Shown piece after piece: positions 14,801-63,587 of a DNA stretch of 64,000 nt. Under the pieces are notes generated by a model, which was not told the origin of the DNA, did no database searches, and was given only the letters and a program-made list of their open reading frames with translations. Source of the stretch: Bolinopsis microptera (Eukaryota > Ctenophora > Tentaculata > Lobata > Bolinopsidae). The stretch covers positions 13,862,983 to 13,926,982 of the forward strand of contig NC_087077.1 of assembly GCF_026151205.1 (NCBI RefSeq). Direction: 5' to 3'. The translations under genes and the position numbers were made by a program. Each line of letters begins with the position of its first letter. Position 1 is the first letter of the stretch.

Positions 14801-17800
14801 CTGAGTCGTCTGAGTACATCTGAATCGTCTGAACTCATATCATGTGATCCATCTGGTTACATTCTGTACATGGTTGATGAGCATGGTTGATGAGCTGATG
14901 TTGCCTAATAATGTTATCAATTTAAACAAATGTACGGCTGTTAACTAATCTAGAAGCTCGCATGTCATCAGGTTACATTATTACCTACTTCTTGAAACAT
15001 AAACCTCTCCGTTTTACCTTAATTAATTGGACTAATATGTATGATCAATCAGATTTGTAGCTTTAGTGACATGCCAGTTGACATTTTATTCTTTTAAGAC
15101 TTGGAGATTTCAAGATTTTGTATCACTCGTATTTGTAAGTGGTTTACTATGCCTCGTTTTCCCCGAAGATACAGATTGTTTGGTAAACTCATGGTATGTG
15201 CTTATCTGATTTATTGCTGAGAGATATCCTCGTAGTCACAATACAAGGGCCATTGTCATTGTTGGGAGCCAACTGGAAATCCCATTGGTTTCTGGCTGTT
15301 CCTATTTTAATAGTCAGTTTCTAAAAGTTAGTGCAGTTCGGCTGACCAGATTCTCTGGACTAGGATTCAAGACTTCTCATTTGTTTGAAATTGTGTTCAG
15401 TTACAGAGCAACACTGTCGCTCCTCTCACTTTTCTCACGAGAAGCCAGAACAGATCTAGAAAGGATAAAATCGCTAACATTTTTTTCTCGATAGAGTCAG
15501 TTCACAGTTGCTAGTGGTTAGAATTTGCAGTTCATGGGATAGCCCTTTATAATGTTTAGTTACTAATAAGTACTACTAATTAATAAATATACTACTACTG
15601 ACAATTAATTTATAGTAATACTAATTGTATTAATACATTTCAGGTTTCTGCCTCAAGACAACCTCTAGTAACAAGGTAAGCCTCTCTTCTCTTTCAATAT
15701 CATTACCAGCGCTAACCAACTTACGCTATATCATTATCTCCGAATTGATATTATTAAATCTTTTAACATTCTTTGTGTGAAATTTGACGGAAATTGCTCA
15801 TATATCCCGGGGAAAAAAAGACAAAATAACATTACAACTTCACATACAATATTACACAAGGCACCTCACACCAGTAACCAGATCAATAAAATATCACGAC
15901 GTTACACTCTGTTACCGGGAGAGAGAAAATACCATAATCCCACTCTTTCTCGTAGTTACATTGAGCACCTACAGAGAATGAAAACGGTAGCCACCTGTGC
16001 TAATCTCGCTTCACACTGCTTAAATTATCTAGTCTCTGTGTGTGTGTGCTCTGTGTGATGTTGTCTGTTTGTTTCTTTGCTCTATAGTTCTCGTATTATA
16101 TACAATTGAAGAGTAGGTTCTGAAACAAATATCTTTTTAGGCCTAGCGTATAATAATTGAAACAACTATTTGAAACGGTTCAGGTAGTGGTTATCAGTAG
16201 TTAAATGTGCGTGATAATATCAAGGTTTAGACGTTTGCTATCGATATCTTATATTAAGTGATTTTTAATGCCATTAGTTCAGATTTATTCATTTAGCTAC
16301 CGGGTTCAGACTACGACATTTCATTTATCAATATTAAGTCCAGTTTCATTAATGCAACTAATAAATGCAAAGTTACGTAACCATCAGCTGCTTAAATTCA
16401 ATATGATATTGAGTATCAAGAAGTGAATCATTAATCATTCATCGTATATTCAGAAAGTGCATTATCTCGCCGGTCATGGTATTGGTAGTGCTGGTTCAGT
16501 TTGAGTCGTTACAATTGAGGCAGGTACATTTCCATTGCTTGATTGTCGATCAACGATATGTTTTTTGATCCTTGAGGCGTTGCTCCCCCCCCCCCCCACT
16601 GGAACCCCCATGTTTACTATCCGTCCTCGAAAGAAAAAGCAATGTAATGTAAACTGTGTAGTTTTTCTGTTGAGAATGAGATTGACTGTTCTCTTTAGAG
16701 GAATTTGTAACTCCACCCGCTCTCCTGCTCTAGCAACAACTTGTCAGCCAAAACTGAACCAATCTAGAAATGAGCATCATTTCTTGAAGCGTTAAATGAT
16801 TTTATGTCGTCTGCACATCGTCAAATCGACAACAAAGTCAACAGACTGAATCAGGAAACTTGGTTAACTGACGGTCCCAGACACACCAAACTGACACTCG
16901 GCCACAAGCATGCCAAAATCATCAAAAACCTCAACACTACACTCAGCAAAAACAGACAAGATTACAGAACTGCAGTTCACCTCATCACGGGTCACTGCGG
17001 CTTAAACAAACACCTTCACACCATTTGCAAATCAAACACCAGTGCTTGTCCTATGTGCGGCGACGGAGAGGAAACTGTCTCACACTTCCTTGGACAGTGT
17101 CCAGCTATTGCCCAAATTAGAGGTCAATATTTCCAGGACTACTACCTCTCTGTCAATGACATATTCGACAACCAACACATCACCACAATTGTCAATTTCG
17201 CAAACCGCACCAAACGCTTAATTGTGCCGGAAGAGCTGGATCAGACCGGGGTGACTTAAAGTATTATCTCATATGCTGTCTCGTCTCGTTTTACTTTTCC
17301 AAACCCAGCTGGCATTTAAGCGTATCATTTTGACTCATATATCATCTTACACCATCCTCCACCAATCACTCTGATTTCACCGGCAACCTTCCCCAAGGTT
17401 GCCACACCCCAGAGGTAGGCAGAGCATCTCAATGCTATCCTCTCGTGGGCTATCTTGGCCCAGCCTCTCTTAAAAAAAAAAAAAAAAAAAAAAAAACATC
17501 GTCAAGTCAATTAGACAAACATACGTTCACAAAAGTAAAATTAATCTAATGTCAGTGAGAATTCCTTGAAACTAGAGAGCTGTGACCCTGTAGTTTCTAG
17601 GAATTCTCGCTGACATTAGCCTTTTAATGTCAACAGTTAAGATGGGGTGGGGGGGGAAAAATAATTGTATAGTTTTTTAGTGACAGAGCTGCTGGAGATA
17701 AATATGTAAAAAGAAACTGCATACAAATCTGACCTTGCGTTGCTGAGATATTGCGCTCCAAAGTTTAATTATACCTGTAATTATATGTGAAACTTTAACT

Positions 17801-20800
17801 ATAACTCAAATAAGGTAAACCTTGACTTTTGAAAAAGGCTGGCCATACCCAGGACGGAGGACCTGAGACTTGGCACAGGCGTTCCTTGGGCCGCTGCCTA
17901 CAAACGGTATGTACAGAATTTTGATATTCGCCTCTGTTCTTGAAATATGAGGTTAACTGTAACCCAAATAATGAATTTTCAATGAATTACAGGCAAACCT
18001 CAAACTTTGGCGCGCTAAATCTGAGCAACGCAAGGTCAGATTTGTAAGCAGTTTTTTTTTCTTGTTCATCTCCAGCTGCTCCATCACATATTACATATTA
18101 TTTTAAACTATAAAAAATCATTTTTACCCCCTTCTGGCCCCCTTCTGGCCCCCTTCTGGCCCCCTTCTGGCCTTAAAATATCATGTCTCGCTTCAGTATT
18201 CAATGAAATAAAATTAAATCCATCACCTTATTCCAAGAAGTTCGTTGGATTTGGCACTTATAATTATGAAGTGCGATTTTTACATCAGATTTTTATTTGG
18301 GATATGTATTTTGATTTATGCATCCATCGGTTTAATTAAGTGCATTTAATAATTCGTGCCCGCGATTTGTTAAAGTTTTTGATTGTGTAACTCCCATAAA
18401 TTTGAGAACTCAAAAATAGGCTATACATAACGCATAAACTACTTGAGTAATAGTTTAATAACGCATAAACTACTTGAGTAATAGTTCAATAACGCATAAA
18501 CTACTTGAGTAATAGTTCAATAACGCATAAACTACTTGAGTAATAGTTCAATAACGCATAAACGACTTTAATAACCCGGCTTAGGACTACACCCTTCCTT
18601 TTTTACCTTTTTATAATGGATCATAAGTAATTCAATCAAATACATAGTTGCCAATTATTTTAATCAGATCAATTAATTTTCCGACACCCGAGTCATCAAA
18701 ATACTATTGAGCCCTTTGTGTGCTTGTTTTTTGTGTTCATTGCTTGTAGTGTTTGATTTGCAGTTTACTTCAGCCGTATTAAACAAGAATAGTATGTAGG
18801 CATATATGAACAATATACATTTTTTTTTTAAAAGCACGTTAATGATTATTAAAAACACATTGTTGTCAGATGCTGTATCTTATTAAAATTAATACAACAA
18901 AATAGGGTCAGAAGCTATATAGATGATTGAATTCATAACGTAACATTCTCATGCCTTCATGCAAGTAGTGATATCACGGTGCCGTATTTATTTCAGCTCC
19001 TAGTGCTGTGTTGAATCACTTTACAATGCACACTGAAATCTGTAAATTTATGCACACGTGTTCTGAAGCAAATATTTTCGTTGCTTGTCCCGCAATTTAC
19101 AATGTATTATTGCTATTAGTTGTGCAATTCCTCACGATCTTCTGCTAGTATTTGCGGTTTTCTCTACATAACAGCTTGTAAGTGTAACATGTAGGTGTAA
19201 TACGTTTACGCCATATTATCTCTGATTTTTCATTCTGATTTTCTGCATTTTAAACTACTCACAGATTTCTGAGTGAACCGGCTTGTAAACTTTATATAAC
19301 GATAAAGTTTTGGACTCCACGTGGTTCCATAAGAAGCTTAACCGCGATGGTTTATATTTCATGTATTACTATATCATAATAGCCTGTAGCAGGCAACGCC
19401 CGATACTAATGTATTATTTATAATTTATTCCGTTACACTTGCTGTCATTTTAACATGTTTAGTGGTTTCGTTGATTTTGTCGTATATTTGATGCTTAATT
19501 TTTTATTTCATGTACCCATCATGTATGCTTCGTGTCCAAAAGCATTATAATTTCATGTATTCTTTATTCTGTATTTTTTATTTCATGTTTATTTTCGACC
19601 TCTCCCGCTCCATAATTTCTAGCGGGGGTTCAATTTCTCATATACTGATATAATTTAGAAATTCTGAACCATTAAAAATTCATGACTGGTTGACGAATTG
19701 TATCACGGTTCATAATCCTATTAACCGTTTGGTAGTTGCTCTAATACCGATCAGCCTCCGTTCAAATTTCCCATAAAAGTGTCGTACATGATCCTTTATA
19801 ACTTCACATTATAACTTGAGCATTTTGGGTGTCAAAATATTTTTAAATCCGTTAACAAAGGCCTTCTTTTTCAGTCAGGTAGAGAGATGGCCAGGATCTA
19901 ATGAAATGTACTCCAGAAAGCTTTTGTCAAATTCTACCGGTAGGAGTTAATAAAAAACTTCCTTGTTCAGTTCTGACTGATGATTTATTATTTAAGCTTT
20001 TCCGTTACCCCTCAAGTGGGAATCGTGTGTTGAAACTTGAAACCTGTTTATTCATTTGATCGGTAACCATTTTATTTAATGGGGTCCGGACTCTAGGTCG
20101 TGATCTCACTTCCTAGAGCCCCTGACCCCACTTTGATTGTGCCTTAAAAGATATTTAATAATAAATTAATCAAAAACTAATCCCCCGCCAGATCGTCACA
20201 AGTCTCAGTTGAACTCAAGTAAGCAGGATCTATTTGCCCTGTTCGATGCCATTGAGCTGAGTTGGTACAGCAAAGTGTGCTCCCTTGTTACCTGTCCTGG
20301 ACTTCAGATCAATGGGTAACATACCTATTAATAAGTTAATTAATTAATTAGCCGCGAAGATATTTTGGTTTAATCAGTAACTAACAAGATAGTTGAGTAC
20401 AAATAGTTTGAGTTTAAGTTCTCGAAATCTATTAATTTCAACCTATTTTTTGGGCTTAAACCATAAAATTTTAATATGCTGAATGAAACTTTCCGTAGCT
20501 ATAATAGACATCACGTTCCCCATTCTCATGAAATGATTTCAGATTAAACGAGGAAGGGATGACCCCGTTAGACGTGTCTCTGTTGCTGGGTGATACTCCC
20601 GTTGCTAGGGTACTACAACATCACGGAGCTGCTGAAAGTATGAGATGTGAGTTTTGAAGTAGAATGTGGTTATATTTTAGGAATCACTCCTCATTCTCAT
20701 ACTATAACTGTAATTTCCTCGCTACTCTCCAGCAACATTACAACTTCTCAAGTGAAACCCAACTCCTCCAGATATGAAGGATCCTGGAGTAAGATACCAG

Positions 20801-29800: not shown

Positions 29801-32800
29801 AGTACGCTCTCTCACAATTTTCTGTAAGCTCTCGGAATTTTATTGTGTTTTTCGAAGTTTAGCTTAGGAGAATTCCAGCAACTTAAAACTTACCCGCGAT
29901 ACCATTGCAACATGTTAGGGATGCAGGTGTCGTCATAACAAGGCCGCTCAATAATTATATATTCTTAAACGTGAAAGTGAACTCACAATTCATAGTTACA
30001 TGTTATATATTGCTGTACTCGAATATAATCATATTAATACAATTTTCCAAACTTAATGAACAAATCCCACCTGACATCCATTATGCACGGTCGTGACCAC
30101 ACGTTCGAATAACCAATTATTTTGAAATTTGTCTCGGAACAACAGGTCATTAGTTTTCAACATAGATCGCGAAATTTTTACTGTAGAATCGTAAATAGAA
30201 TTTGATACTTTTACCACCTGACGTTTGTTATTATAGATCAGTTAGCATGTTGGTTGTGGTATAATAATTTGCTCTCTTTGAGAACCTTGATGACAATTTT
30301 CATGAAGATTTTCATAATTTACACTGAAAAATAGACGCTCATAACTTTTGATTTACTTTCATGAATTTAGACTTTGATGGTGAGAAACCAATGACTTACA
30401 AAGAGTCAACCATTGTTAGAATCAAACGTAATCTTACTACAGACGATCCCAGAAAATCGCCCACCGGTGCTCATCTTCAATAATCTTTAATTATTTCACC
30501 GTCTTGTTGGTTCTTAGTTTGCAGTCCTAAGAACTACCACATTTTGAAATTCTGCATTTTTTGAAATCGTGATTTTCCAGTTTGATTTTGTTGTTGGTAT
30601 TCGACCAAATTCGTGATAATTTGATCAATCAAATAGTAAACCTAAACCCTTTTGATTGAAAGCTTAAAACAATTTGAGATTGCCTTAAAGAAAATTTGTT
30701 GATGATTGTTCACTCTTTCCCTCTATCATTTCTGCAGATTTTTATTGCTACTTAACTTTCTATGGGCAGAGAGAATTGGGTGTCAATCATTGAACTAATT
30801 AAATTACGCCCCCAATAAACCGATTCCTCATTAATCACTGTTTAGCACGGATTGCGAAAGACCCAGAATGACAGATCAGACTACCTCGAGTACAGCTCCC
30901 TACACCGGAACTGAATATCCTTACGTTTACTGGCCATTTAGTTCCATATCAGTCTTCTGCTTCTGCCTCGGTGTCCCAGTCAACCTTTTTTCTGTTGCTT
31001 ACTTCGTTTCCAAAAACAAGAAAAGACCGACATACGTGTGTCTCCTTTATATATTTATGAACACGGTAGATCTGGCGATATGTTTCCTCTGCCTCCCTAT
31101 GTCAATGACTAACTTATCAAATGGAAAACAACTTTTCTTCTCTGTCAGCTTCCTGTGTAACATATGGGGCTATCTATGGCAGATTCTGATAAGATTGTCA
31201 GTGTTTGCAGTCGGACTGATGAGTATTTGCCGGACTATTTCCCTCTCGCTGCCGTTCTTAACACTTACAAAACGACACCTTCTAATTCCTGTTGTCATAT
31301 ATTTGGTGGTACTGCTGGTACAACAGTCTATCCCTTGGTGGTTCGGGAAGAGATACAATTTCTGGAATAGCACATGCTCCTGGAGTATCTGGTTCTCTGG
31401 TACGGAGTATAAAGTTATGCTCATGTTCTTAATATTACTGCCCTTTATACTGCCCTTATTTCCAATTGTCATCAGTTGCTTGATATCAGTTGTGAAACTG
31501 AAGACTTCTGTGACTCACTTTGATTCTGGTAATACAAAAGTTGGGCACGAGCACGCTGCAAGAGCTAAGAAAAACAAAAGATCAGCAACAATTACCATAG
31601 TCATGCTAACAGTCGCATACATCGTATTCAATTTACCCTACTGCCTGCTGATGCTTGATGAACTGGTCTACAGTTTAAGCGAAGGGAAAGCAAACATTAT
31701 CCGATCATTGTTTAACTGGTCAAAAACTCCTTATTATCTGGAGATCTACTCCTTCTTCATCCAATACTCAATCCCGCTTAACAGCACAGTGAACCCTCTT
31801 ATATACATTCTGAGGATCAAGAGTCTCAGATGCTACATTCGGAACGCTCTGACTTGCGGAGGGATAACTCCGCCTAAGACAAATATCTCCTATTCGATGC
31901 AAACGATTACAAGCAAGCTCAGGCCTAAACATAGAATTTCAGCCTCAAGAAATTCTAAACTTTTGCCACGCTGACTTGATCTCACGAAGGACGTTATTCT
32001 TTGATTGCATGAATCCCGATAGATAACTGCATGAATCCCAATAGATAATTTTTATTATGATTACGAAATTATTAAGACAGTAGAACAGCTTTTATTTTAC
32101 ACAATGTTTTTTTTTCGGCGCCATGGTTCGTATCCATCTTTTATTTATTTCAATTTTCGAGAAAAACGTCTACATTACAGCAGACTTTTTGATGTTGTTA
32201 CTGTAATCAGTACCGGCTCTTCACACGACTAGAAAATAAGAGTCACGTGTCATATGAATAGTAATTAGTGAGACCTATAACAGATGGCCCTAAAATCATC
32301 GGATGATGATTAATCACTCTACGATCGACTGTCACGTGACTTTATCACCCGTTCTCTAGGTGGCCCTGAATGTCTAATGTCTATCTGAAACCCTCTAATG
32401 AGTCCAATCTGATCCCAACCCTCACCCTCACCCATTCCCTTACAAAAGCATACAGTATACTGAAACCCTACCCATAACGAAAATTAGAGTAACTTCCTTA
32501 TATGGTCATAATATGACTCATATCATAATATGACTCATATCAAGACAGTTTTTCGTCATTATCTCGCCAGGGGAGCATTTTAACCCTATATCAGGGGGAA
32601 GGGGTGATTCGGAATCAGCATCCGAAAATACATTGATTCAAGGTGGTTTCAACAGCTCTTACTAATTCGCTCGCCTAAAAATTTCACGTGACTTTGGTTT
32701 TTATGGTTTTTGCAGCCGTAAAAAACGGTTTAACATAAACCCTAATCCCAACCCTAACCCTAACCATAACCAAAAATACACCAATTTCATACCCAAAGAG

Positions 32801-35800
32801 CCTAGCCTTTTCACAAGAATTTTCTTAAAATTTGGGCGAGCGATTTAGTAGAAGCGGGTTTAGTAGAAGCGGGTTTCTATTCAACTGTCTTTTAGAAAAA
32901 TCTCGAAGATCGAGTGTAGCACGCTCGAAAATCATTAATAATACTGTTAGTGTTACTAAGATCTGACCTATAATTAGCTTTAAGGCGTGCTTCATCGACA
33001 ATGAGCCGCGCATAACATGACTGAAGGATGGTTTTTAGCGCTTATTTCGGCAAGCAAAAGAGCGATTAGAATCACATAATCGGTAAACTTCCCTCAATCC
33101 AATCCAAACAAAATTTTAACCGAAAATTCGAACACTTAAAAAAAAAGTTTGGGCATATTCAACCATCAGACATTATGTTGTAGTTCAAATTATATTATTA
33201 TTAGCTGCTTTTGCTTTTCCGGCCGGCCGCCGCGCGCGGGATCAAAAGGGGTTGTAGCGTGTGTCAAGACGAAACTCACTTATCATTCCAAAAAAGTATA
33301 ATGACAAATTTGGTATTACCTTACTAGACTCGATCATGAATTGCTTTAAAAATGATTTTGGATACGATCCATTATGATCAAAAGTAAGCAAGCTCTGTCA
33401 CTACGATAAGTATAATATTGGCAGGGCCAGGAATCAAGGCCCGGACTAAAACACACAGAGCAGACTGGGTATAAAAAATATCAATATGGAAAAATAGTAA
33501 CCATAATGAAAGTAATTAAGTATATAGATAGTATAAAGGAGGGACAAAACGGGGCCCTTCCAGTAAGAGTAAGGAGATCCTGTGTGTTGGGTGTTCTTCT
33601 CTTCTTCTTTATTGAGGGTGGACGTGGACGGTGGATATCCAGTCTTGATTTCTATAAGGAAGGTTTTGATTTTGTGAACGTATTGTCCTGTGTATTGGAG
33701 GGGTTAATCAATCAATTAAACAATTGAATGCAAGTCATTAGTATAATATGTTCTAAGAGCGACAATGGTGAGTCGGACAGGATCGAGGTGAGCGGTAAAT
33801 TGGATCATCTCCCTCTATCAAAAACAGTTAAACCTGAAAGGAGAGCAAGTATATTCACTATAGTATATTCAATGGCTTTTTATCTAAAAGTAAAGCTTGG
33901 AAGTATTAGTAAGACAAAGAAAACGTTCCATTTCTAAAGGGATAATTAATGTTGCTTTGTAATGATATAATTTTCAATCTGAGTCTATAGTATTCTTTCA
34001 CCGCGGAGTGATAGGCTCAAATACTGCGCTGAGGTATCTGTAGGATATTATTCGTTCATCTTTGCGAGTTATTTATTCCGTACAGTAATTCGTAGATCGT
34101 TAAAATCGATGTTTAATCGAGCTAAAATGCGACCAACAAATATTTCAATTGCATCTCATAGTCATTGCCCTTTTTTATGGACCAAAATTAATATTCGATG
34201 AATAAAAGTTCGTAAAAATTGCCAAATCAAATTCGGGTAATTTGCGCTTCTCCGCCTGTAGTAGCTACAGATGCCTGGAGACTGACAATAAGGCCCTTGG
34301 GTTTCGGAGTCACATGGTGATTAGATCGTGAACAAATATTTTGAGATATTTAAATAAAGTTAAACTTTAAATAAAAACTGGTCATAATTTCCATGGCTTT
34401 CAGTTTTCTGTTATTTTCTATAGCATAAGGTTATGACCTTAAAGATGGCAATGATGGTAACATTTAATTTTAAACCGCACCTTTCCAACAATTCTTCATT
34501 AATCATTACTATCAATCAAGGATCGGAAAATGACAGATCAGACCACCTCTAGTCCCTACACCGGGACAACAACTGAATATCCTTACGTTTACTGGCCATT
34601 TAGTTTCATATCAGTCTTCTTCTTCTGCCTCGGTGTTCCAGCAAACCTCTTCTCCGCTGCTTACTTTTTATCGAAAAACACGAAAAGACCGACACACGTT
34701 TCCCTCCTTTATATGTTCATGAATATAGTAGATCTGATGATATGTTTGCTCTGTCTACCCATGGCAATGACTAACTTATCAAATGGAAAACAACTTTTCT
34801 TCTCTGTCAGCTTCCTGTGTAACATATGGGGCTATCTATGGCAGATTCTGATAAGATTGTCAGTGTTTGCAGTCGGACTGATGAGTATTTGCCGGACTAT
34901 TTCCCTCTCGCTGCCGTTCTTAACACTTACAAAACGACACCTTCTCATTCCTGTTGTCATATATTTGGTGGTACTGCTGGTACAACAGTCTATACCATGG
35001 TGGTTCGGGTACAGATATTGGTATTATCCTGAGTATAGCACATGCGCCTGGAGTATCTGGTTCAAGTTTGAGTCTACGGAGTATAAAGTTATGCTCATGT
35101 TCTTAATCTGTCTGCCCTTTATCCTACCATTATTTCCAATTGTCATCAGTTGCTTGATATCGGTTGTGAAACTGAAGACCGATACAACCCACTGTGATTC
35201 TGGTAATACTGAAGTTGGGAATATGCACCGTGCAGGAGCTCTGAAATCCAAAAGATCAGCAACTATCACCATAGTCATTCTAACAGTCGCATACATCGTA
35301 TTCAATGTACCCTACTGCTTGTTGATGCTTGATCAACTGGTCTACAGTTTAAGTGAAAGGAAAGCAAACATTATCCTAGCATGGTTTAACGAGGAAACTC
35401 CCTATTATAAAGAAATTGGCCGCTTCGTCGTCGTCTACTCAATCCCATTGAATAGCACAATCAATCCGATCATATACATATTGAGGATCGGAAATTTGAG
35501 GCGCTATATTTGGAACATCTTGACCTGCAGAAGATACGCCGATACTTCACATACCATTTCTACGGTAGGCAACACCATCAGGCACAAATTCAAAATTTCG
35601 ACTTCTAAAATGTCCAAGCCTCTGCAACTTAATTTGAGTTTAATTTTGTCACTCTTTCAAGGCCTTCTCCGAAATTAAACGCAGCGTCCCGTTCTTTTAT
35701 TTATATTTCCTCAGGGATTTCAAAACAGCCCTCGTGCAGCTAGAGGGCAGCGATTACAAGGAAATACGATTCATCTTAATCCCAACGTCTCGTCACCCGC

Positions 35801-38800
35801 ATCTTTAAAAGCAAGGAGAATAACATCACCTTGTAATTCTCCTGTTCCTATCCGGAAAAAGGCTGTGAGTCTCCCCGCAACTACAATCTGGAGCTGGAGT
35901 CCAGAAAGTGTTAGAGTGCATCTCAGAGAGACAGTGCCTCCTCCGAAGAAAAGAAGCTGCAATTAGATATATGGAGCAAAACTATAATGCTGATACTCTT
36001 TAGTCTTTCTTTTGCTATCTCTTAACTGTGAAACCTTTAAATTATCACAAAATTATAGTACCTTTAGTAGTAGTTCCTTTCTTTCCTTTATATTGTCTCT
36101 TTATTCACTATCTTGCTACTTTCATGCAATTTTCATAATTTAAAAGTTCACACTGACCCTCATGTACAATTTTAATAAACGTGCGTTATCATGGTATGAT
36201 GGTTAGGGGTCGTTCACATATTACGTAATCAATATTTTAGCAAATTTTACCCCCCTCCCCCCTTCCGTAATCAACCGTAATCAAGACCCAACCCCCCCCC
36301 CCCCTCCTGACAGCAATATTACGTAATCATGGCCTGACCCCCCCCCCCCCCCCACCTTGTCTTTTTTTTCTAGAAAAAACTTTTCGCTACGTTTCATGAT
36401 CATGCTATCATGATGAGCCGAAATCATTGTTATGATATCCGGCCAAGCAACTTCTAAAATACTTACTATTATAGCCGGATATTCGATCAATTTCTAAATT
36501 TCATCACTATCAGAGTGAAATTGAGTGGAATTTGAATTAAAATATTGTCAAATTGTTATTATTCTAGAGGGTAAAAAAGAAAATTTGATTACGTAATCAA
36601 CGGCCGAAACCCTTCCCCCCCCCCCCGCCGTAATCAACCGTAAGCATTTGGAAACCCCCCTCACCCCTCGGCTGATTACGTAATATGTGAACGACCCCTT
36701 ATGATGGGTAAATGGTACAATAATTTAAATCATAACTATCAATCAAGGATCGAAAAATGACATTAAATTCCACCGGGACAACAAGGGCCGGGACAACAAG
36801 CACCTCGACAACAACTGAATATCCTTACGTTTACTGGCCATTTAGTTCCATATCAGTCTTCTGCTTCTGCCTCGGTGTTCCAGCAAACCTCTTCTCCGCT
36901 GCTTACTTTTCATCGAAAAACTCGAAAAGACCGACACACGTTTCCCTCCTTTATATATTCATGAATATAGTAGATCTGATGATATGTTTGCTCTGTCTAC
37001 CCATCGCAATGACTAACTTATCAAATGGAAAAGAGCTTTTCTTCTCTGTCAGCTTCCTGTGTAACATATGGGGCTATCTATGGCAGATTGTGATAAGATT
37101 GTCAGTGTTTGCAGTCGGACTGATGAGTATTTGCCGGACTCTTTCACTCTCGCTGCCGTTCTTAACACTAACAAAACGACACCTTCTCATTCCTGCTGTC
37201 ATATATTTGGTGGTACTGCTGGTACAACAGTCTTTACCATGGTGGTTCGGGACGGTATAATTACTTTCCTGAGTATAGCACATGCGCCTGGAGTATCTGG
37301 TTCTCTGGCACGGAGTTTATAGTTATATACATATTCTTTATATTTCTGCCCTTTATCCTGCCCTTATTTCCAATTGTCATCAGTTGCTTGATATCAGTTG
37401 TGAAACTAAAGACCGATACAACCCACTGTGACTCTGGTAATACTGAAGTTGGGAATATGCACCGTGCAGGAGCTCTGAAATCCAAAAGATCAGCAACTAT
37501 TACCATAGTCATTCTAACAGTTGCATACATCGTATTCAATGTACCCTTCTGCCTGCTGATGCTTGATCAGTTGGTCTCAAGTTTAAGCGAAGAGAAAGCA
37601 AACATTATCAAAGCATGGTTTAACGAGGAAACTCCCTATTATAAAGAAATTGGCCGCTTCGTCGTCGTCTACTCAATCCCATTGAATAGCACAATCAATC
37701 CGATCATATACATCTTGAAGATCGGTAATTTGAGGCGCTATATTTGGAACATCTTGACCTGCAGAAGATACGCCGATACTACACATACCATTTCTACGGT
37801 AGGCAATAACATCAGCAACAAATTCAAAATTTCGACTTACATAACGTCCAAGCCTCTGCAACTTAATTTGAGTTTAATTTTGTCACTCTTTCAAGGCCTT
37901 CTCCGAAATTAAATGCAGGGTCCCGTTTTTTATTTACATTTCCTCAGGGATTTCAAAACAGCCCTCGTGCAGCTAGAGGGCAGCGATTACAAGGAAATAT
38001 GATTCATCTTAATCCCAACGTCTCGTCACCCGCATCCTTAAAAGCAAGGAGAATAGTATCACCTTGTAATTCTCTTGTTGTTATCCGGAAAAAGGCTGTG
38101 GGTCTCCCCGCAACTACAATCTGGAATCCAGAAATGAGAGTCCATCTCAGAGAGACAGTGCCTCCTCCGGAGAAAAGAAGCTGCAATTAGATATAGTTAT
38201 ATGGAGCAAAACTATGATGCTGATACTCTTTAGTCTTTCTTTTGCTATCTCTTAACTGGGAAACCTTTAAATTATCGCAAAATTATAGTACCTTTAGTAG
38301 TAGTTCCTTTCTATCCTTTATATTGTCTCTTTCTTCACTATATTGCTACTTTCATGCAATTATCACAATTTAGAAGTTCACACTGACCCTCATCTACAAT
38401 TTTAATAAACGTGCGTTATCATGGTTATGATCAATGATGGTTAAATGGTATAGGTACAATGATTATACTGTAACAAAATTGCACCTTCTTCTGCTATTAC
38501 CCACAGCTATTCTTCGGAATGTTTCTCTGCGATCTGCAGATTTTCTTTTTCTCTTTTATGTTTTATACAGCTCGCCTATTCATGATCCGGTTTTGATGAG
38601 AAATTATATCTTGTTTGATATATCTATACTTTTTTACTTCTCTGCATCAACCCATTAAATTACAAAAAAGGATGGACATACATTGATCTGGTGTAAGTAT
38701 GAGAAGTTATTATTTATATTCTGACATTATTGTCTAATATTACACGGTCGATCATTTTCATCCGTTTTTAAATACCCAGTGGTCATGAAAAATATCAATT

Positions 38801-41800
38801 TCTCCAGTAAATTCTTATTTTCTAAATAAATAGATACCAAAAACTCCAAGTTGTTATTCCTCTTTTGATGCAGTAGATGATAAACCTCTGAAATATTTCA
38901 GTACAGCGGAGTAGTTGTCCTAACTTCCAGAGTGATGTTCACACCGAGATAGTATCAGCAGGACATGTCTTATCTCACCAGATAACAGGACTCAAGAAGG
39001 GGGTTTGTTTTTACTTCACCGTCCAGGCTGGGAATATCAAGGGCTTCGGAGCACCCTCGCCAATTTTAAAGTGAGTGATTTTTGTTATATTTTGTTTTTT
39101 AAATACATGTTTATCGGCATCAAATAACAGCACAGCTTGCCATTTTAACCCTCACCATTGTAATTTGTCTGAGACGTTTCCACCAAACTTTCTATCACCG
39201 TGCTTCTTGGACATTCCATCTGTTACATAATATGTGTATCTCGTTAACAAAATTGACTGGGTGATTATGTGACACGACACCTTAATTGGGCACCCTTAAC
39301 AATTCCCATAATGTTTAACGGGGTAGTTAACGGGGTCACCTTATCACGTGATTAGGTAAACCAATCACCTGATCACACGTAATGAATAAACTCGTTATGC
39401 TTCATATCTCGGTCATCTGAGAAGCTACAGTTCTAATTCTTTCAGGACAAACGTAATTCGAATGGCCAAACACAATTCAATAACATTTAGCTTGATCCGA
39501 CTATCCAAACTATCAAATAAATGTGAAAATGAACCTCAATTTGAAAAAAATGAACGCGAATATTTTACGAGTTGACAAATTCCTCGAACCAGTGGTGGTA
39601 CTAAGTCATACCAGAAGGAAGTATTTCAATTGGGCACTCAGTGACTGAGCTATTAAGGCCAACGTTTGCACACTGACTTTTGGCCCACCCTGTATTAATT
39701 ATGATAATAATATCATCACATCATACTTACAAACCCCACAGCTTTATAATACCCGATCTCAGATGTACCCCGTCACACTGGTCCGACAATGCTCCACCTA
39801 CAGACCCACTCTCCCACCAGAGCAAGTGTTCCAACATGCTCTCAGATCTCCGGACCCACTTCAACTACCTCTTCCCCACCCTACTCTCTCAGACACCTAC
39901 CAAGTGTAAACCTCGGAGCAAGAGCCTCAGTAGGATATTTACTACTCCTAAATTTGTTAAGAACTTGAATAGGTGGGTTTGAGACTTGTTGAGATGAGCT
40001 TTTCAACATATTACGTAATCAGCTGAGGGGGGGGGGGGGGTTTTCCAAATGATTACGCTAGTGTAATTTTGACAAAATAACTATGTGTAAAACTGATTAC
40101 GGAGGGGGGAGGGGGTAAAAATCTTCCAAAAAAAATGATTACGTAATATGTGAACGACCCCTTAGTCGGATTCATTTATTGCTTTAGTTTGTTTAATGGT
40201 TGGTCAATATATTGCCTGAATCAAGTAATAAATTGTGAAAGAAGTATTTTTGTATTAACATTTCCATTAATTTCAGATCTCTGTACCTATCAGTCGTGCA
40301 CTGCACTCAGAATGGAAAAGTATTGTTGACAGACTTTGATAAACTACCCACCATCGAGGTAACTTTAAAACAAAAGGTCTTCGTTGTCCACACTTGAGCA
40401 GATTAGTCATCAGTGCAATAATGCTATTGATGAAGATATTTAAAGATCGTTTTGATCTTCTGCCGATTTTGCCCCATTTCCATGCCATATTTCCCAATTC
40501 TGAATTATCTAAAAATATCTTTTCCCAGGTAGAGGATCTAGTGACAGCACCATCCGCTGAAACGGAACTATTGTGGCTGTTCAAACATGCCCTGGCAGGT
40601 TGGCCTTCAACCCGGGAGCTGAGAGAAGAACTGACTCCACACGAGGGGGTCGGGGGTATAGGGCTCAGATACAAACTACTCTCTGCTGCTATATATCTTC
40701 AGGTACTATTAAGTTTCAATTCAGATTATATCATTATACACTAGATTTTCTCCTTCTACTAGTATTATCGTCACTGATCCTAAGATTAAGATTCAATATT
40801 AATTGATGATCTGTCTTAATTCTAATAAGGCAATTATTTCAGGATTGTTTAAGTTCTAATGACTTGGGTATACCTTACTATCGACTTGTAAAGAAAAACG
40901 GCCAGCTCCTGATTCTACTGATCAAGACTGTTGATCCGTCCACTCCGCCATTTGGTGGCATCCACTTTAGGAACTTATCCACCTTGACTTCCGGGATTGT
41001 TCAACCTAAAGATGCCTTCGACATAGCACACCTTAACGCCTCAGACCTCCAGACAGTTTACGAGCAATTCGAACAACCACCTACTCCAGGACTATTCGTA
41101 GGACTCCTCCTTTTCAAGATGAAAGGAGAAGAGCTGGAGATAGTGGTGGACAAGTCATGTCCTCTGCTGCCACCACTGGAGTATGTCAGAGAGGTGGGTC
41201 ACGTGACTATGGAAGAGTGGGACTGTCTCCGGAGGGCGCAACTCGGGGGTGCTGGCAACAGCGTACTCTGTAAACAGGTATCTGCTGCAGCTTGTGCTTT
41301 GCTCTCCCGGGTCCATGACACCGAATCAGATATTGACAATTATGCTATCTTCACAAAAACTATCATCGAAATCGGGGGTACTTCAGTTATCTTGATAATC
41401 CCGCCCCAAGTTGTAGCTCCCCTCGGGTATGATGGAGATATTGACGGCACAATATCCGTCCCTCTCCAGAACTATGAGATCTTCCTGAACCGAGTCTGTC
41501 GGGGTGATCTGACCAGATCAATGCTGCACGTGACAACTCACATGAACACGTGTCACGCCATCCTCGTCCAGATGATCAGACAGACAATCAGCACTGACCA
41601 ATCAGAACAACTCAGACTTTGCCAGGACAAGTTTAAGAAAATGCACGAGGAGATGTGTGGGGTTTGGTCCGAGTATTGCAGTTTCTCTAAAGTCCTGAGC
41701 GAGTGTATGAAGGAGGGGGACCAGTGTGTCAGGAGTATATCTGATCTCCTCCGCTACGCTCCCAACTCCCCTGCTACCTCCATCAGCGACACCCTGACCT

Positions 41801-58300: not shown

Positions 58301-61300
58301 GACAAAATTAACCGGACAAAATCAAATGTAACCGTCGAGACAAGTTCTGGAACTGGTCCTATTAATGTAAGAGTTTAAGTAATGTAAGCAGTGTGCTGGA
58401 GTTTTGCCAGCGCCTGCAATTAGACCGATACGTAGATCAAGTGTATTTATAGTTCTTACGTTAAGCCATAGGTCACGTGACATTTTTTACCAATGCGCGT
58501 CGTAGTAGTTAGTCACGTGATACACGTCATCAAAACACGTGACAGTGCGCAGTTGAAATTCTCATGGAATATCAAAACAAAACAAATCTTGTTGAGCCAA
58601 ATTAGCGGGGCGGGATTATAGAAGTTGTGCCGGGGTTATTTATTCAGCGGGAAAAAACTAACAGCGGGAGGCGGGATTATCAGAATCTATTTAGCGGGAG
58701 CCGGGATTATCATAATCTTATTCTATCCCGGAGGGGTTTATAAGGTAGTAGTAGTAATTCACAATCATACCTATTAAGTGCAACAGGTGACTTACTTTGA
58801 TATTTCAGTGACAACCGTCTTTGTACGAGTTGGAATCCACCTTTACAAATTGTGGATTTCAAATTTACATTGTACAGCAATTTAAAGCTTAACAAAATCT
58901 ATTTCTGCCTACATTTTCTTGGAAGATAGCTTGGTACTATGAATACACAACTTTGCACATTAGTTAGCCAATCAACATTATAATTAACGACCAACGGCTG
59001 CTTTTTTATCCATAGGTTACAACTATGAAGTTGAACTATTTTGTAAACTAGGATGGCTTCCAATTTTAGCATCAGCCACACAATATTCAGCTTTCTACAC
59101 CAACATCTTGAGCTTTTTAACGTGTACGAACAAGTCCAATATAATGGTGCGAGATGGTGCACTGTTCATTCTGCAGACTAATGTTGATTAACACGTAATT
59201 GTACGCTCTCAGACTAATGCTATGTGATCACACACCATGACACCATGACATAAACCTGCTAAAACCAGGATCAAAGTGATCAACAATTTAAAATCCTACA
59301 ATTACATCAGAATATCGAGCACGTGATACGGCTGGGTTCCTCTAATTGGTGCCCAGAGTTTTCCTTGTATTGCAACACCTAATTATCACAGGCATGGAAA
59401 CTAGATATTGCACCTCCTCATAACTTAATCAATCTTAATTACTCTATTGTGGCACTAAGGTTTGACATTGTGTTTTATACTGTTATAATGATAAAGCGAC
59501 TGAAAGGTGGGGCGGGAAGACTCCTTCATAAACTCAGGAAATACTTGTTGTGGTTGTTACCAAGGGACAAATTACATTACACTTGACTGTAACAACACAT
59601 AATATATTGATATATTTGAGACTCGAAATAGGAGGGCAAACGAATCGTTGTACATGGTATGGTTATAGAAAGAACAATCCTCGGTGCCAAATTAGAATAA
59701 AGAATTCACCAACATTCATTATTCTAATGTGCCCGCTCATTTCGAGTGTTTCACTCCTTTGAAATATAATGCTCCTGCTTGTTTGCAGTTGAGCACCAAG
59801 CTACAACTAATTATTAATACATTATCAAAACTAAGTTTCTGGCAGGATTTGTTAAAACGTCTGCATGGTATGGTCATACCACTTACCAATTACCATACCG
59901 GGATTATTACGACGGGTTTATTAACGACCGGTTAAAATATGGTTCGGGAAAAATATGGCGAAATTGCTCAAAACCCACCACATTTTCCCGGTCGCCATTT
60001 TACCGGTGTCCAACCTTTCAATTTTAGATTCAAAAATTTAGTCTCAGATGTAAATTTCCTTATTAGAGATACGGGTATCGGCCTTACAAAATGACAGGCC
60101 TCACAAAATGACAGCCCACATAGACCATGCTGTAGCTTAGGTTCCCTATACATTGAACCCTATTCCTTTTACTGTATGAAAGAAAAAGCATTAATTAACA
60201 CTTCCCAAGGAATGATAATGACATAGAATCTATATTTCTTACATAAATATGGACGTTTTTGCTGTTCAGTCATTGCCCCGCCTAACTGTTACCCAGAATG
60301 GAGACCAAAGTTTAGAATTTAACCCCAGAAAACCAGGTACTACCATGACTTATGTCAATCAAAGACTACTCTGGTCAAATAAAAAAACTGATTTAGTGAC
60401 TTTGGTAGAAGAAATGACAAAAAAATGACCTAGCCTCACAAAATGACAGTGTTATGCCTCACAAAATGACAGTTTTATTTTATGATACAAAGATGGCATA
60501 TTTATATTGGATGCCCCTTGCCTAATTATTGGTATTCTTAAACCCAGTAAGCTTATGATGAGCCTAAATGTGTTTGTTTGATCATAAATTTTGATCAAAA
60601 TGCCTCACAAAATGACACCGAAAAGCCTTACAAAATGACAATGTTTCAGATTGAATTACTTTCATCATCTAAAATGGATCAGAAACAGTCAACACAAGAA
60701 GGAGTTAAAAATAATCATAATCTGACAGTTAACAATCAAGTAGCATTAAAAAAGTGCAGTTCTGATATCAAAACTTTGATTTCAAACTCTGAATTCAAAA
60801 CTCAACGAAATAAAGCTTCTATTTTGTGAAAGCAGAGAGTAATAACAACTCCTAAAACATGTCAAACGTTAACTAAACACTGAAAAGTGATCTATCCAGC
60901 CATAGAAAATATCAAATATAACCAAATACTGTGTTCAAGTATGAAAACAAAAAATGATTTTTACGCCTCACAAAATGACATTTTTTAAATTTTTTCAAAG
61001 TACAAAAAATGTTCCTTTTTTAATATATTCTGGTAAAAACAGAACTGGTATAATATAAACAACATATATATCTAACAGTAAGACACGTGAAAGAATAATG
61101 AAACTTTTTCCCAAATCGGATTTGAAGTGATGCCGTTTTGGGTTGTCATTTTGTAAGGCACTATCTCACGCGAAATTGCCCAACTTTTTTAATCATCCTT
61201 TTTCCTGTAAAAGCTATTCTAATCTTCAATCTATTATATTTATCTAACTGTCCTAGGTGAAATCAAATTTCTATAAGCTGCTGTTAAAAAATGACAGCCG

Positions 61301-63587
61301 TGACGAAATTGTCATTTTGTAAGGCATGTTTTTTTGGAAGATTTCAAAGATGACAATTTTTATCGCAAAATTTACGGTTTTTCAATCAAATCAACCCCCG
61401 GGAAGAAGAATATACCTGTTGAACTACCTATCTGGATAATAAAACATGAACAAAACTCATTTTTGTGCATTTCAGAGCCATCTCCTTTTTCGTGTCATTT
61501 TGTAAGGCCGATACCCGTAAGCAAGTTTAGAAATTTTCGCATTGCTAAAACTTGTGAAACAAGTCGAATTATCAATAATTGTTGAAAGTAGACAGAAATA
61601 ATGACTCGTGGTTAATCAAACTAGATGGAAAATAATTTTTAACATTTGAAGCGTAACAACCAGATCGATATTAAGATAAAGGGAGAGCTGTTTAGTCTTC
61701 CAATAAGTTGTAATCATCTTCGTTATCTTCATCTGGATCATCCCTTTCATCAGTTTTAATTAATTCAAGTTTTAATTTAACTGTTACTTTTACTTTGAGT
61801 CCTATTTCATTATGTAGAGATAGTCAATACCTAAGAAATTAAAAATTGGCCGATTTAAATCAAATTTGACAATAAGGATATATGACAAGAATTGGGCAAA
61901 AAGGTGAATTTTTTGCAATTTTAGCCAAATGAAGTCGAAAAACCTACAAGTGTCCCAATAGTCTTCTTTAGTGAATATAAGACAACGATTAAAATATGAG
62001 CACCCATACCCCTTGGGAACCCTAAAAGCTGAGTAGGCGGGTTTATTAACGACCGGTGAAAATGTGGTTCGGGAAAAATATGGCGAAATTACCCTAAACC
62101 CACCACTTTATCCCGGTCATAATAATCCCGAGTAAGGTAGTCCATTACCCGTGCGGGATCATTCATTTGGAAACGTGTTATAGGACCGTCCTTACAACTT
62201 TATGTCTGTATTTGTAACTTGAAATTCAAAACCACTTACATGACCTTTTGAAGACACTCGACATCCAAATATGATTACTGATTAAAGGGGCAGAGTGTGA
62301 ACGAGACAGTAAATATTATAACATATTCAAAAAGTTCACTTGATTGTCTGATCCTTTGAGTGGCGGGTTAACCGGAGATGACTGATAGGGACATTGATCA
62401 CGTGACACGTGTCACTGGAAATTACGAGTCTACCTTTGAAGGTGGGAATATTTGACAGGAAGGGTGTTCGGACTACATATAATCTTGACACGAACATGTA
62501 CCACGATTTATACGTGTCTCGCCTATAATTATCATAAATTGTATACCCTTATCAAATTTGACCCAAATAAAACACACAGTTTTGATAAGAGATCTCCAGC
62601 AGTGGACTGAGATACAGGCGCGACATATTCATAATCATGACAAATTCCGAGTAGCAGTCCTGAAGTGCTAAAGTAGCAGGACTAGTCTAAATTAAACAGG
62701 TCACGGCGAGACAAATATGAACTTTGTGAGGCTTTAAGATGTTGACACAAAGTGACGATTTTGTTTGGGAGATTAAACATAACAACTGATAACAAGCATG
62801 CGACAAAGGATAGCAGTCAACAGACTGAGACAGAGGTTCAATATTGTGAGAAATTTCTTGAGAAAGAATAACAACGTTCAATTACGTGCCTAAGTTCAGT
62901 TTGATAAACAACTAAACGTGCCTAAGTTCAGTTTGATACACAACTAAATGTTTCAGTTATTCACTTATCGCTATTCACTTATCGCTACTACTATACTAAC
63001 ATTGTGCGCGAAGGGTTTTGGTTTGTTGAGAGGAAGTTAATTTTAGGCGACCTATCTGTTCTTCTATTCCGGATTGAGAGGGTACGTCGGTAGGATATAG
63101 TTCGAGAGGACAAGTGATAAAAGTTTGATAAATAAGGCGAGTTGAATGAACGACCAAAGCGAGACGATATATAAAGCGAGACGATATATATAATATGTGT
63201 ATGTATGTATATATATATCCGTACCATTTTACTGACACCACGGCATCAACTTTAACACGACTTTCCGCAAAAACCGTAAAAGATATACAACTTAAACTTT
63301 TTTGAATGGCTCAAAATATGCTTTAATGGCCTTCAAATTGGCATGAAAAAATAAAAATTGGCCAAGGAATAAGAATTTTAGTGCCAAAAATTTGGACCAT
63401 AAAATCAGGAACAACACTATATCCGATATATGGTCCGATAGTTTCATTGCGTCTTAATATTAAACGTGGGAAAGAATAAGGTTTACCTTTGTGGAGAGTG
63501 ATGATGATTTCTTTGCCAACTTATCAAAGAGAGACACAGCGATATGTCTGCTGACCAGGGGTCCTTCAAAGGTTACAGCTGTGGATA
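49161..63587 (-). CDS. Clathrin-associated-like protein with VHS/ENTH-like helices, partial gene model
   Basis: At least ten minus-strand exons. Consecutive exons from 56288 down to 49161 all join in phase; the one at 63487-63587 does not join directly, so exons are missing in between and upstream of the window. Order: PLVSRHIAVSLFDKL; LNTVNEALCSTVPNSFQSFL; DFIDPFNLVTNHKN; IIPVVCYLLRQGSNYFKMEV with LMESSLACQGTVVHELYK; YEYKKSLLGDEYSSEL; MTEIWKFAAQYKQLNQ; LRALSVVDYLSQHY; FLHVVKEIAVCDNMDLKKKA with QRILSRLSED; and a Ser/Pro-rich tail with ETLLDLG. The last five-helix-like segment recalls VHS/ENTH superhelices, and LLDLG is a textbook clathrin box, so I infer an endosomal or clathrin adaptor. I do not recognise the exact family. 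Confidence 0.55.
49514..49569 (-). CDS. VHS-like gene short exon
   Basis: Reads RSYDKILPSTVGYQTMTN and connects phase 0 to phase 2, which the next exon requires. The acceptor CATATGAAG is poor, so the left border is provisional. Confidence 0.5.
49749..49885 (-). CDS. VHS-like gene exon, last helices
   Basis: Reads SCQATFLHVVKEIAVCDNMD, LKKKAQRILSRLSEDNEI and a Pro-rich end. V--KA--IL--L is the closing helix pattern of VHS/ENTH folds. Confidence 0.8.
50264..50352 (-). CDS. VHS-like gene exon, central helix
   Basis: Reads ELQRVLQGKEPMCQLRALSV, then VDYLSQHYH. LRAL-V-DYL resembles the central helix of VHS domains. Phases fit on both sides. Confidence 0.8.
50478..50625. mobile_element. Short pogo/Tigger-like MITE
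   Basis: ACAGTAGAACCCCGATTTACC at the left mirrors GGTAAATCGAGATTTTGGTGTA at the right, with internal GGTAAATCAGGGTTT and GTAAATCGGAGC scraps. It lies in an intron of the VHS-like gene and matches the termini of the 10930 copy. Confidence 0.65.
50648..50831 (-). CDS. VHS-like gene exon, first helices
   Basis: Reads IPVRTKGDITREVQIEAIVS, PEKRIVDQITTASCIEPLPP and MTEIWKFAAQYKQLNQHAIN. Acceptor GCCACAG, donor CAT|GTAATT, phase 2. Confidence 0.8.
50979..51075 (-). CDS. VHS-like gene exon, ELVELIEYE
   Basis: Reads ELVELIEYEYKKSLLGDEYS and SELAVPKCISLN. Acceptor TGTTGCAG, donor ACG|GTATGT, phase 1 out. Confidence 0.78.
51076..54675. other. Long intron of the VHS-like gene
   Basis: I see no gene. 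It holds a 12-bp tandem repeat (GTAGGTCATTA / GTAGGTAATTA units, about 52577-52628) and a 22-bp repeat (TCTAGTGTAATTCTAGTGCAGT, about 54033-54100). Confidence 0.6.
54676..54816 (-). CDS. VHS-like gene exon, IIPVVCYLL
   Basis: Reads IIPVVCYLLRQGSNYFKMEV, QYKRTLIVKLMESSLACQGT and VVHELYK, 47 whole codons, alpha-helical. Acceptor GTTTCAG, donor AAG|GTTAGC. Confidence 0.78.
55439..55526 (-). CDS. VHS-like gene exon, DFIDPFNLV
   Basis: Reads DFIDPFNLVTNHKNTLAIID and HDAGPGDNL. Acceptor CTTTACAG; donor TTG|GTATTG gives the phase 0 that the next exon needs. Confidence 0.55.
56207..56288 (-). CDS. VHS-like gene exon, LNTVNEALC
   Basis: Reads LNTVNEALCSTVPNSFQSFL, then EPLLPP. The donor CCGCA|GTAATT gives phase 2, which matches the next exon. 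The acceptor (AAAAAG) is weak, so the left border is uncertain. Confidence 0.55.
56687..57016 (-). pseudogene. Possible Ig-like or cell-surface exon fragment
   Basis: The minus-strand frame has protein-like composition in its middle: VGLPLNISPEFTNDISCTSQ, PIVVTLYLVWLQCGNYSCTV and LESVEGVVYKST. The C ... W-QCGNYSCTV pattern recalls an immunoglobulin-type domain (GxYxC), with several N-glycosylation sequons. No clear start, splice sites or partner exon are visible. It is flanked by direct repeats carrying CTAGATACA and CACGTGATAT (about 56320-56365 and 57005-57062), so it may be a mobile or duplicated scrap. Confidence 0.3.
57797..57977. mobile_element. Foldback element with a row of perfect hairpins
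   Basis: Outer inverted arms ATAACACACATAACCCCGGC and the mirror of GCGTGCCGGTGTTATGTGTT enclose three hairpins. These are AATTTTTCCCGCG/CGCGGGAAAAATT with a 3-base loop (57837-57865), a GTGCGAAGCAC hairpin (about 57880-57892), and AAAATAACCCC/GGGGTTATTTT (about 57905-57943). Confidence 0.75.
57975..58742. mobile_element. MITE with TTATAAACCCCTCCGGG ends
   Basis: TTATAAACCCCTCCGGG at the left and CCCGGAGGGGTTTATAA at the right are a perfect inverted repeat. The right half carries repeated GCGGGA--CGGGATTAT motifs. It abuts the 57797 hairpin element. No coding capacity. Confidence 0.8.
60070..61519. mobile_element. 1.45-kb nested transposon with iterated GCCTCACAAAATGACA
   Basis: Perfect 27-bp terminal inverted repeats begin TACGGGTATCGGCCTTACAA. 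The 16-mer GCCTYACAAAATGACA recurs at about 60081, 60099, 60433, 60456, 60602, 60625 and 60965 on the plus strand, and inverted at about 61144, 61310 and 61493. The flank allows a TA duplication. The 83-codon frames inside carry no known domain. Confidence 0.8.
61697..61830 (-). pseudogene. Acidic-tail coding remnant
   Basis: The minus frame reads LKVKVTVKLKLELIKTDERD, then DPDEDNEDDYNLLED and TAA. An acidic C-terminal tail of this sort is common in proteins encoded by DNA transposons, and this one lies inside the 59891-62139 element, but there is too little to name it. Confidence 0.3.
63487..63587 (-). CDS. Upstream exon of the VHS-like gene (assignment tentative)
   Basis: Reads STAVTFEGPLVSRHIAVSLF, then DKLAKKSSSLSTK. 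Acceptor CCTTAACAG, donor ACAAAG|GTAAAC. It is coding-like, but it could belong to another minus-strand gene because the next known exon is 7 kb away and out of phase. Confidence 0.55.

Follow-up and report, generated by a model that had tools for sequence, protein, structure and literature searches.

The 1450-bp segment at 60070..61519 of the 64-kb window (the whole stretch of DNA that was analysed) is probably a non-autonomous cut-and-paste DNA transposon with dispersed putative transposase-binding sites, moved in trans. We give this reading a probability of about two in three. The segment is called the inner element here, since a larger structure encloses it. A repeat search of the window revealed that it is bounded by a perfect inverted repeat of 27 nt (100% complementary), for which the rough chance expectation is ~5e-10 for a 1450-bp stretch. 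A preliminary description of this DNA had proposed a perfect 27-bp terminal inverted repeat (TIR) element with exactly these coordinates. Inverted repeats at both ends are one criterion for a class II TIR transposon, and the inner element possesses them; we infer that it has been mobile.

The TIR is bipartite, as revealed by the repeat search together with motif alignment. The left TIR (60070..60096, + strand) joins an 11-bp tip, TACGGGTATCG, to a single copy of a 16-mer, and the inverted right TIR (61493..61519, − strand) is likewise composed of an 11-bp tip and a 16-mer. Perfect inverted homology ends at the inner edge of the 16-mer. The 11-bp tip is absent from all 8 inner copies of the 16-mer. 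Single-strand folding also pairs the TIRs, a result obtained without a shuffle control at that length, and a foldback or cruciform reading is not claimed.

The 16-mer, GCCTYACAAAATGACA, is present in 10 exact copies within the inner element, 7 forward on the left and 3 reversed on the right. The forward copies (+ strand) are copy 1 (60081..60096, T form, inside the left TIR), copy 2 (60098..60113, C form, 17 bp after copy 1), copy 3 (60433..60448, C form), copy 4 (60456..60471, C form, 23 bp after copy 3), copy 5 (60602..60617, C form), copy 6 (60625..60640, T form, 23 bp after copy 5) and copy 7 (60965..60980, C form). The reversed copies (− strand) are copy 8 (61144..61159, T form), copy 9 (61310..61325, T form) and copy 10 (61493..61508, T form, inside the right TIR). 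The seven forward and three inverted copies reported earlier were thus exact in count and position, and the terminal copies do form part of the TIR, one inside each arm. No exact copy was found in the 64-kb window outside the inner element. When up to 3 mismatches were allowed, the window contained 14 matches compared with 1.32 expected from 100 shuffles. The four non-exact matches, each with 3 mismatches, are at 2529, 31262, 34924 and 48617.

The 10 copies were aligned together with 25 bp on either side of each. 15/16 columns are invariant, and position 5 alone varies, with T and C in a ratio of 5:5. The flanks end this conservation abruptly, as 0/50 flanking columns exceed 0.97 bits and 45/50 have 0.5 bits or less. 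The long spacers between copies (n = 6) were compared as 15 pairs in both orientations, with shuffles generated in one orientation. 28/30 comparisons do not exceed their shuffle maximum, while 2/30 lie above it (51 vs 42 and 46 vs 43). Because the long spacers are mostly unrelated, the 16-mers appear for the most part not to be remnants of longer duplicated segments, but rather a constrained 16-bp word.

Could a functionless 16-bp word have been multiplied by local copying or gene conversion? The T form is found in 3/3 right-hand copies and 2/7 left-hand copies (5/7 have the C form), a pattern that local copying would give, though the numbers are small. The 23-bp spacing common to two pairs and the 2/30 spacer comparisons above their shuffle maximum point the same way, and the T/C difference between the sides means that some local copying may have taken place. 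However, slippage or unequal exchange would bring flanks along, whereas all copies stop at identical 16-bp edges and the 7-bp spacers differ between the two pairs of 23-bp spacing. Two opposite orientations also require more than tandem duplication. Neutral amplification is highly improbable in our judgment, and selection on a bound sequence would account for the 16-bp edges better than neutral copying.

The sites are widely and irregularly spread, with successive steps of 17, 335, 23, 146, 23, 340, 179, 166 and 183 bp; at none of three periods tested do they clearly share a helical phase. The last forward copy starts at position 896/1450, 62% into the inner element. When the two TIR copies are set aside, the 6 forward copies all lie to the left of the 2 reverse copies, an order with a chance of 1/28. 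By itself the mirror arrangement is therefore modestly unlikely, which is suggestive rather than strong. Possible decayed sites were also observed. Beside the 10 copies, 7 matches with up to 5 mismatches were seen compared with 1.9 expected, and 0/200 simulations gave as many; at up to 6 mismatches the excess (14 vs 9.5 expected) is not significant (0.105). These near-matches break the mirror order, since reverse ones occur in the left part and forward ones in the right part. Two possible decayed copies with 4 mismatches each are on the + strand at 60899..60914 and 61281..61296; the second faces copy 9 and is forward despite its right-side position.

Sharp 16-bp edges, one copy in each TIR and mostly unrelated spacers favor the reading of the 16-mers as iterated transposase sites. 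The 16-mer would be the core site recognised by the DNA-binding domain of a trans-acting transposase, and the 11-bp tip beside the outermost core at each end would serve as a second contact and as the cut point. The 8 inner cores, 6 facing one way and 2 the other, may load extra transposase subunits, which would raise the local transposase concentration and help to pair both ends. Occupancy of the inner cores could also regulate the reaction. Iterated transposase-binding sites had been suggested in the preliminary description, which was right about the inner anatomy in every checked detail; they remain the best explanation, with binding itself predicted from sequence. If this is confirmed, a ten-core 1.45-kb passenger transposon would be a simple test object for site number, spacing and direction, and such tests would address how transposase sites affect self-limitation and the pairing of the ends. 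From the exact 16-bp edges a DNA-binding footprint can be predicted, which could help to find the autonomous partner and its superfamily. A further proposal, which we consider decidedly unlikely, is that the ten identical, orientation-sorted cores gather transposase along the whole element, forming a body-wide loading array and not a relic of end recognition. Were it true, end pairing and self-limitation by site occupancy would be built into a short passenger transposon.

Coding capacity was examined in the stop-to-stop frames of at least 50 codons in 59800-62200. The Pfam scan covered 9/10 listed frames (all except 59936-60091, 52 codons), and none of these 9 gave a match up to E 5. Since no recognisable enzyme gene is present in the frames scanned, the inner element is non-autonomous at best. 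Codon scores were trained on the GPCR and RA-domain frames of the window, a small and membrane-biased set, and the background includes the inner element's own frames, making the test weak. A 59-aa ORF at 60249-60425 has a mid-range score (0.52 of 215 background frames score as high or higher), and an 83-aa frame at 60578-60826 is in the bottom range (0.95 of 215). For frame 61334-61582, 0.87 of background frames score as high or higher. The entry for 60634-60826 was excluded from this scoring as out of frame. The frames at 60249-60425 and 60578-60826 are suggestive by eye and not coding-like by this weak score. PDB sequence searches with the two gave 0 matches and 1 weak match (E 0.56), respectively, the latter taken as chance.

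The 16-mers might be sites for a host or element-coded regulator, such as a transcription factor or silencer, and not primarily for a catalytic transposase. The terminal copies would then belong to the TIR as the starting point of regulation, a situation like that of TNPA-type proteins, which are distinct from the catalytic transposase. Such a role is consistent with the presence of 16-mers throughout the element body, not near the ends alone, and CACTA elements have a distinct DNA-binding protein for their subterminal motif (PMC2613891). The TIR homology, however, stops precisely where the 16-mer does, which links the site to recognition of the ends, and the frames tested yielded no gene with a detectable domain. 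We regard regulator sites as quite unlikely.

Transposase sites repeated inside an element have precedents. Sleeping Beauty (Tc1/mariner) resembles the inner element in its repeated cores, longer outer site and core-only inner sites; one transposase subdomain binds the core in all four repeats, the other contacts the outer repeats only, and a further half-site has an enhancer role (PMC7827188). Its four sites lie in ~220-bp TIRs, whereas ten sites are spread over 1.45 kb here, and its outer sites are just 2 bp longer, compared with the 11-bp extra tip here. The inner element also differs in that its TA duplication is putative and a transposase was not found in it. The resemblance would be one of way of working and is no proof of membership. 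Galileo, of the P superfamily, has internal repeats said to contain secondary transposase sites, but its TIRs are long and its tandem repeats ~210 bp, in contrast to the 27-bp TIR and dispersed 16-bp sites here; the same paper regards the possession of multiple binding sites as seemingly convergent among different superfamilies (PMC3573991). For the mariner Hsmar1, autoregulation is reported to act via competition for binding sites (PMC3687335), so extra 16-mers could also limit the reaction.

Iteration of a motif is also a feature of CACTA (En/Spm) elements, which carry many copies of a 12–17 bp motif inside short TIRs. In a soybean CACTA element, motifs of up to 17 bp occupy subterminal regions in direct and inverted orientation, as does the 16-mer here in orientation (PMC2613891). 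The soybean motif is described as separate from the TIR of 13 bp (PMC2613891); the 16-mer, by contrast, makes up the inner part of the TIR here. Ac binding sites lie in 250-bp subterminal ends (PMC1978519). The iterated sites of soybean CACTA and Ac are thus near the ends in these accounts, whereas the forward 16-mers of the inner element reach far inward. The CACTA/EnSpm-like iterated direct and inverted motif is present here as 10 sites that are not confined to subterminal parts. While the parts are familiar in kind, so many identical sites throughout a whole element seem unusual. Among the titles listed by literature searches, none concerned a non-autonomous element with a short motif scattered along it, and absence from print is not claimed; a text search for the TIR and 16-mer strings returned papers unrelated by title.

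Target duplications were sought at both ends. TA is present at the left tip (60070..60071) and at the right tip (61518..61519), where it may represent a target duplication of 2 bp or simply the terminus of the TIR. It is the symmetric match of the outermost tips, with nothing longer, and no symmetric duplication of 3 bp or more was found at any of twelve boundaries tried. Because TA is self-complementary, a TIR ending in TA gives the same picture without any duplication. This terminal TA has no advantage over the 2-bp self-complementary matches inside the TIR at offsets 4, 8, 9 and 11. Identical TIRs suggest a young insertion, so decay is no easy excuse for a missing duplication. Asymmetric duplications of up to 6 bp (for example TTAGA at offsets -2/+7) emerged from 625 offset pairs and are not claimed. 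Several points count against the preferred explanation: the inner element is known from one copy and lacks any symmetric target duplication of more than 2 bp, its forward sites reach far inward, the sites share no clear helical phase, the near-matches lose significance at 6 mismatches and break the mirror order, and 2/30 spacer comparisons exceed their shuffle maximum.

The lack of a symmetric duplication of 3 bp or more is, for this copy, evidence against canonical Harbinger, CACTA, hAT and similar superfamilies. P elements generate an 8-bp target duplication, and piggyBac and Kolobok target TTAA. No TTAA duplication is present, the flanks being GAGA and AGCA, and the 8-bp duplication of P elements is absent. 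The 8 bp of hAT (PMC12730594) and Merlin (PMC10045372) and the 3 bp of canonical PIF/Harbinger (PMC12730594) are also absent. The ends do not fit CACTA/EnSpm, since the tips are TACGG and not CACTA (CAC..GTG), with a 1-bp match at the tips and no 3-bp duplication.

Two classifications, which overlap with the transposase-site explanation as its sub-questions, were weighed. The simplest remaining one, held tentatively and at somewhat less than even odds, is membership in one of the superfamilies that duplicate TA (IS630-Tc1-mariner, pogo included, or a Harbinger relative of the TA type); the tip would then start CGGGTATCG. The outermost symmetric match is TA; duplication of TA is the general pattern in IS630-Tc1-mariner (PMC10045372) and is also found in PHISTA (PMC12730594). 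A TIR made of tip and core, with core-only inner sites, resembles the IR/DR arrangement of Sleeping Beauty (PMC7827188). The palindromic nature of TA and the further 2-bp matches deeper in the TIR count against this classification, as does the failure to find a transposase in the inner element.

Membership in the IS3EU/GingerRoot superfamily, with the tips TACGG..CCGTA as true ends and the 6-bp target duplication missing, appears unlikely. Complete IS3EU families always end in TA..TA, as the inner element does, and their 6-bp duplication is usual, not invariable (PMC10045372). Rust-fungus members end in TAYGG..CCRTA, which TACGG..CCGTA fits, but a match of five bases is weak evidence and the rust-fungus TIRs are >30 bp compared with 27 bp here (PMC12730594). 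The flanking 6 bp are TAGAGA and AGCAAG, which is no duplication. Furthermore, the 64-kb window contains no TAYGG..CCRTA element with ends 60–9000 bp apart and a perfect 6-bp duplication. Because the usual 6-bp duplication is absent, the inner element was not filed under IS3EU. The earlier decision not to place it in a known superfamily was justified; the IS3EU-like tips are a partial fit, and the TA-duplicating superfamilies are a further candidate.

The inner element is enclosed by an outer element at 59899..62130, whose ends (59899-59916 and 62113-62130) match as inverted repeats over 18 nt at 89%. A gapped inverted alignment of these ends scores 68, whereas none of 200 mononucleotide shuffles scores above 37. 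By these alignments the outer ends do look related, though they are imperfect inverted repeats. An 81-bp repeat is also present, with a left copy at 59913..59993 and a right copy at 62038..62118 (both + strand, 91% to each other). It is direct though the outer ends are inverted, a mixed arrangement, and it overlaps their inner edges. When the 81-bp repeat was treated as a palindrome its score was reached in 7/300 shuffles, and a palindrome is not claimed. A 6-bp outer target duplication, ATTACC, appears in a similar search over offsets only when the ends are shifted by -2 and +11 bp; it is not convincing and not claimed. The statement that the host element is bounded by inverted repeats therefore holds for the presence of related ends, but these are imperfect, and the direct 81-bp repeat had gone unmentioned. 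A transposon nested within a transposon is plausible and unproven, given the imperfect outer ends and the lack of a convincing outer target duplication.

Relatives were sought in viral, bacterial and archaeal contigs. The 27-mer TIR and the outer-repeat pattern each had 0 matches in viral contigs, and no relative of the inner element was recognised there. The 16-mer matched 14 loci in viral contigs, one match each, and at least 117 stretches in bacterial and archaeal contigs, where each of the 80 stretches listed had one match. In 132 loci from viral and prokaryote contigs, near-matches with 2 mismatches or fewer were counted after pre-filtering on the A-rich middle of the 16-mer; two each occurred in L076 and L126 only, and more than two in none. 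Judged from the size of the collection, the 16-mer matches are taken as chance. An 18-mer of the TIR had 1 match in viral contigs, at locus L132, inside a 1474-codon ORF that looks like a phage tape-measure gene. Since this match is inside an ORF and has neither a 16-mer core nor an inverted tip partner, it too is taken as chance.

Elsewhere in the window, exact 16-mers recurring at least 3 times, listed as one row per 300-bp neighbourhood, belong to tandem arrays, duplicated GPCR frames, or repeat-family ends at 36–40 kb. No tRNA (bacterial-code scan) or Rfam match at gathering score was found in the 64 kb. The DNA probably comes from an animal. An array of ~243–256 bp units (alternatively 499 bp) extends from 5171 to 6829, with an inverted unit near 6193-6224. 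Three duplicated rhodopsin-type GPCR frames lie in 30835-37912, spaced ~3.66 then ~2.24 kb, the third split over two overlapping frames; in the Pfam scan of the first and third, the first scores above the cut-off, and the match to a part of the third does not reach it. A frame at 16774-17256 weakly matches a reverse-transcriptase zinc-binding domain (E 0.00095, below the Pfam curated cut-off). An imperfect inverted repeat of 353 bp with 59-bp arms is located at 17708-18060 and has no flanking duplication at the boundaries tried. A ~500-bp element at 36203-36701, with TTAGGGGTCGTTCACATATTACGTAATCA at its ends, is flanked by a duplication whose length depends on end placement: 6 bp (TGATGG), 7 bp or, judged by eye, 8 bp. 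Partial copies of its end are found near 40006-40018 and 40136-40162, with perhaps a degraded one near 43036.
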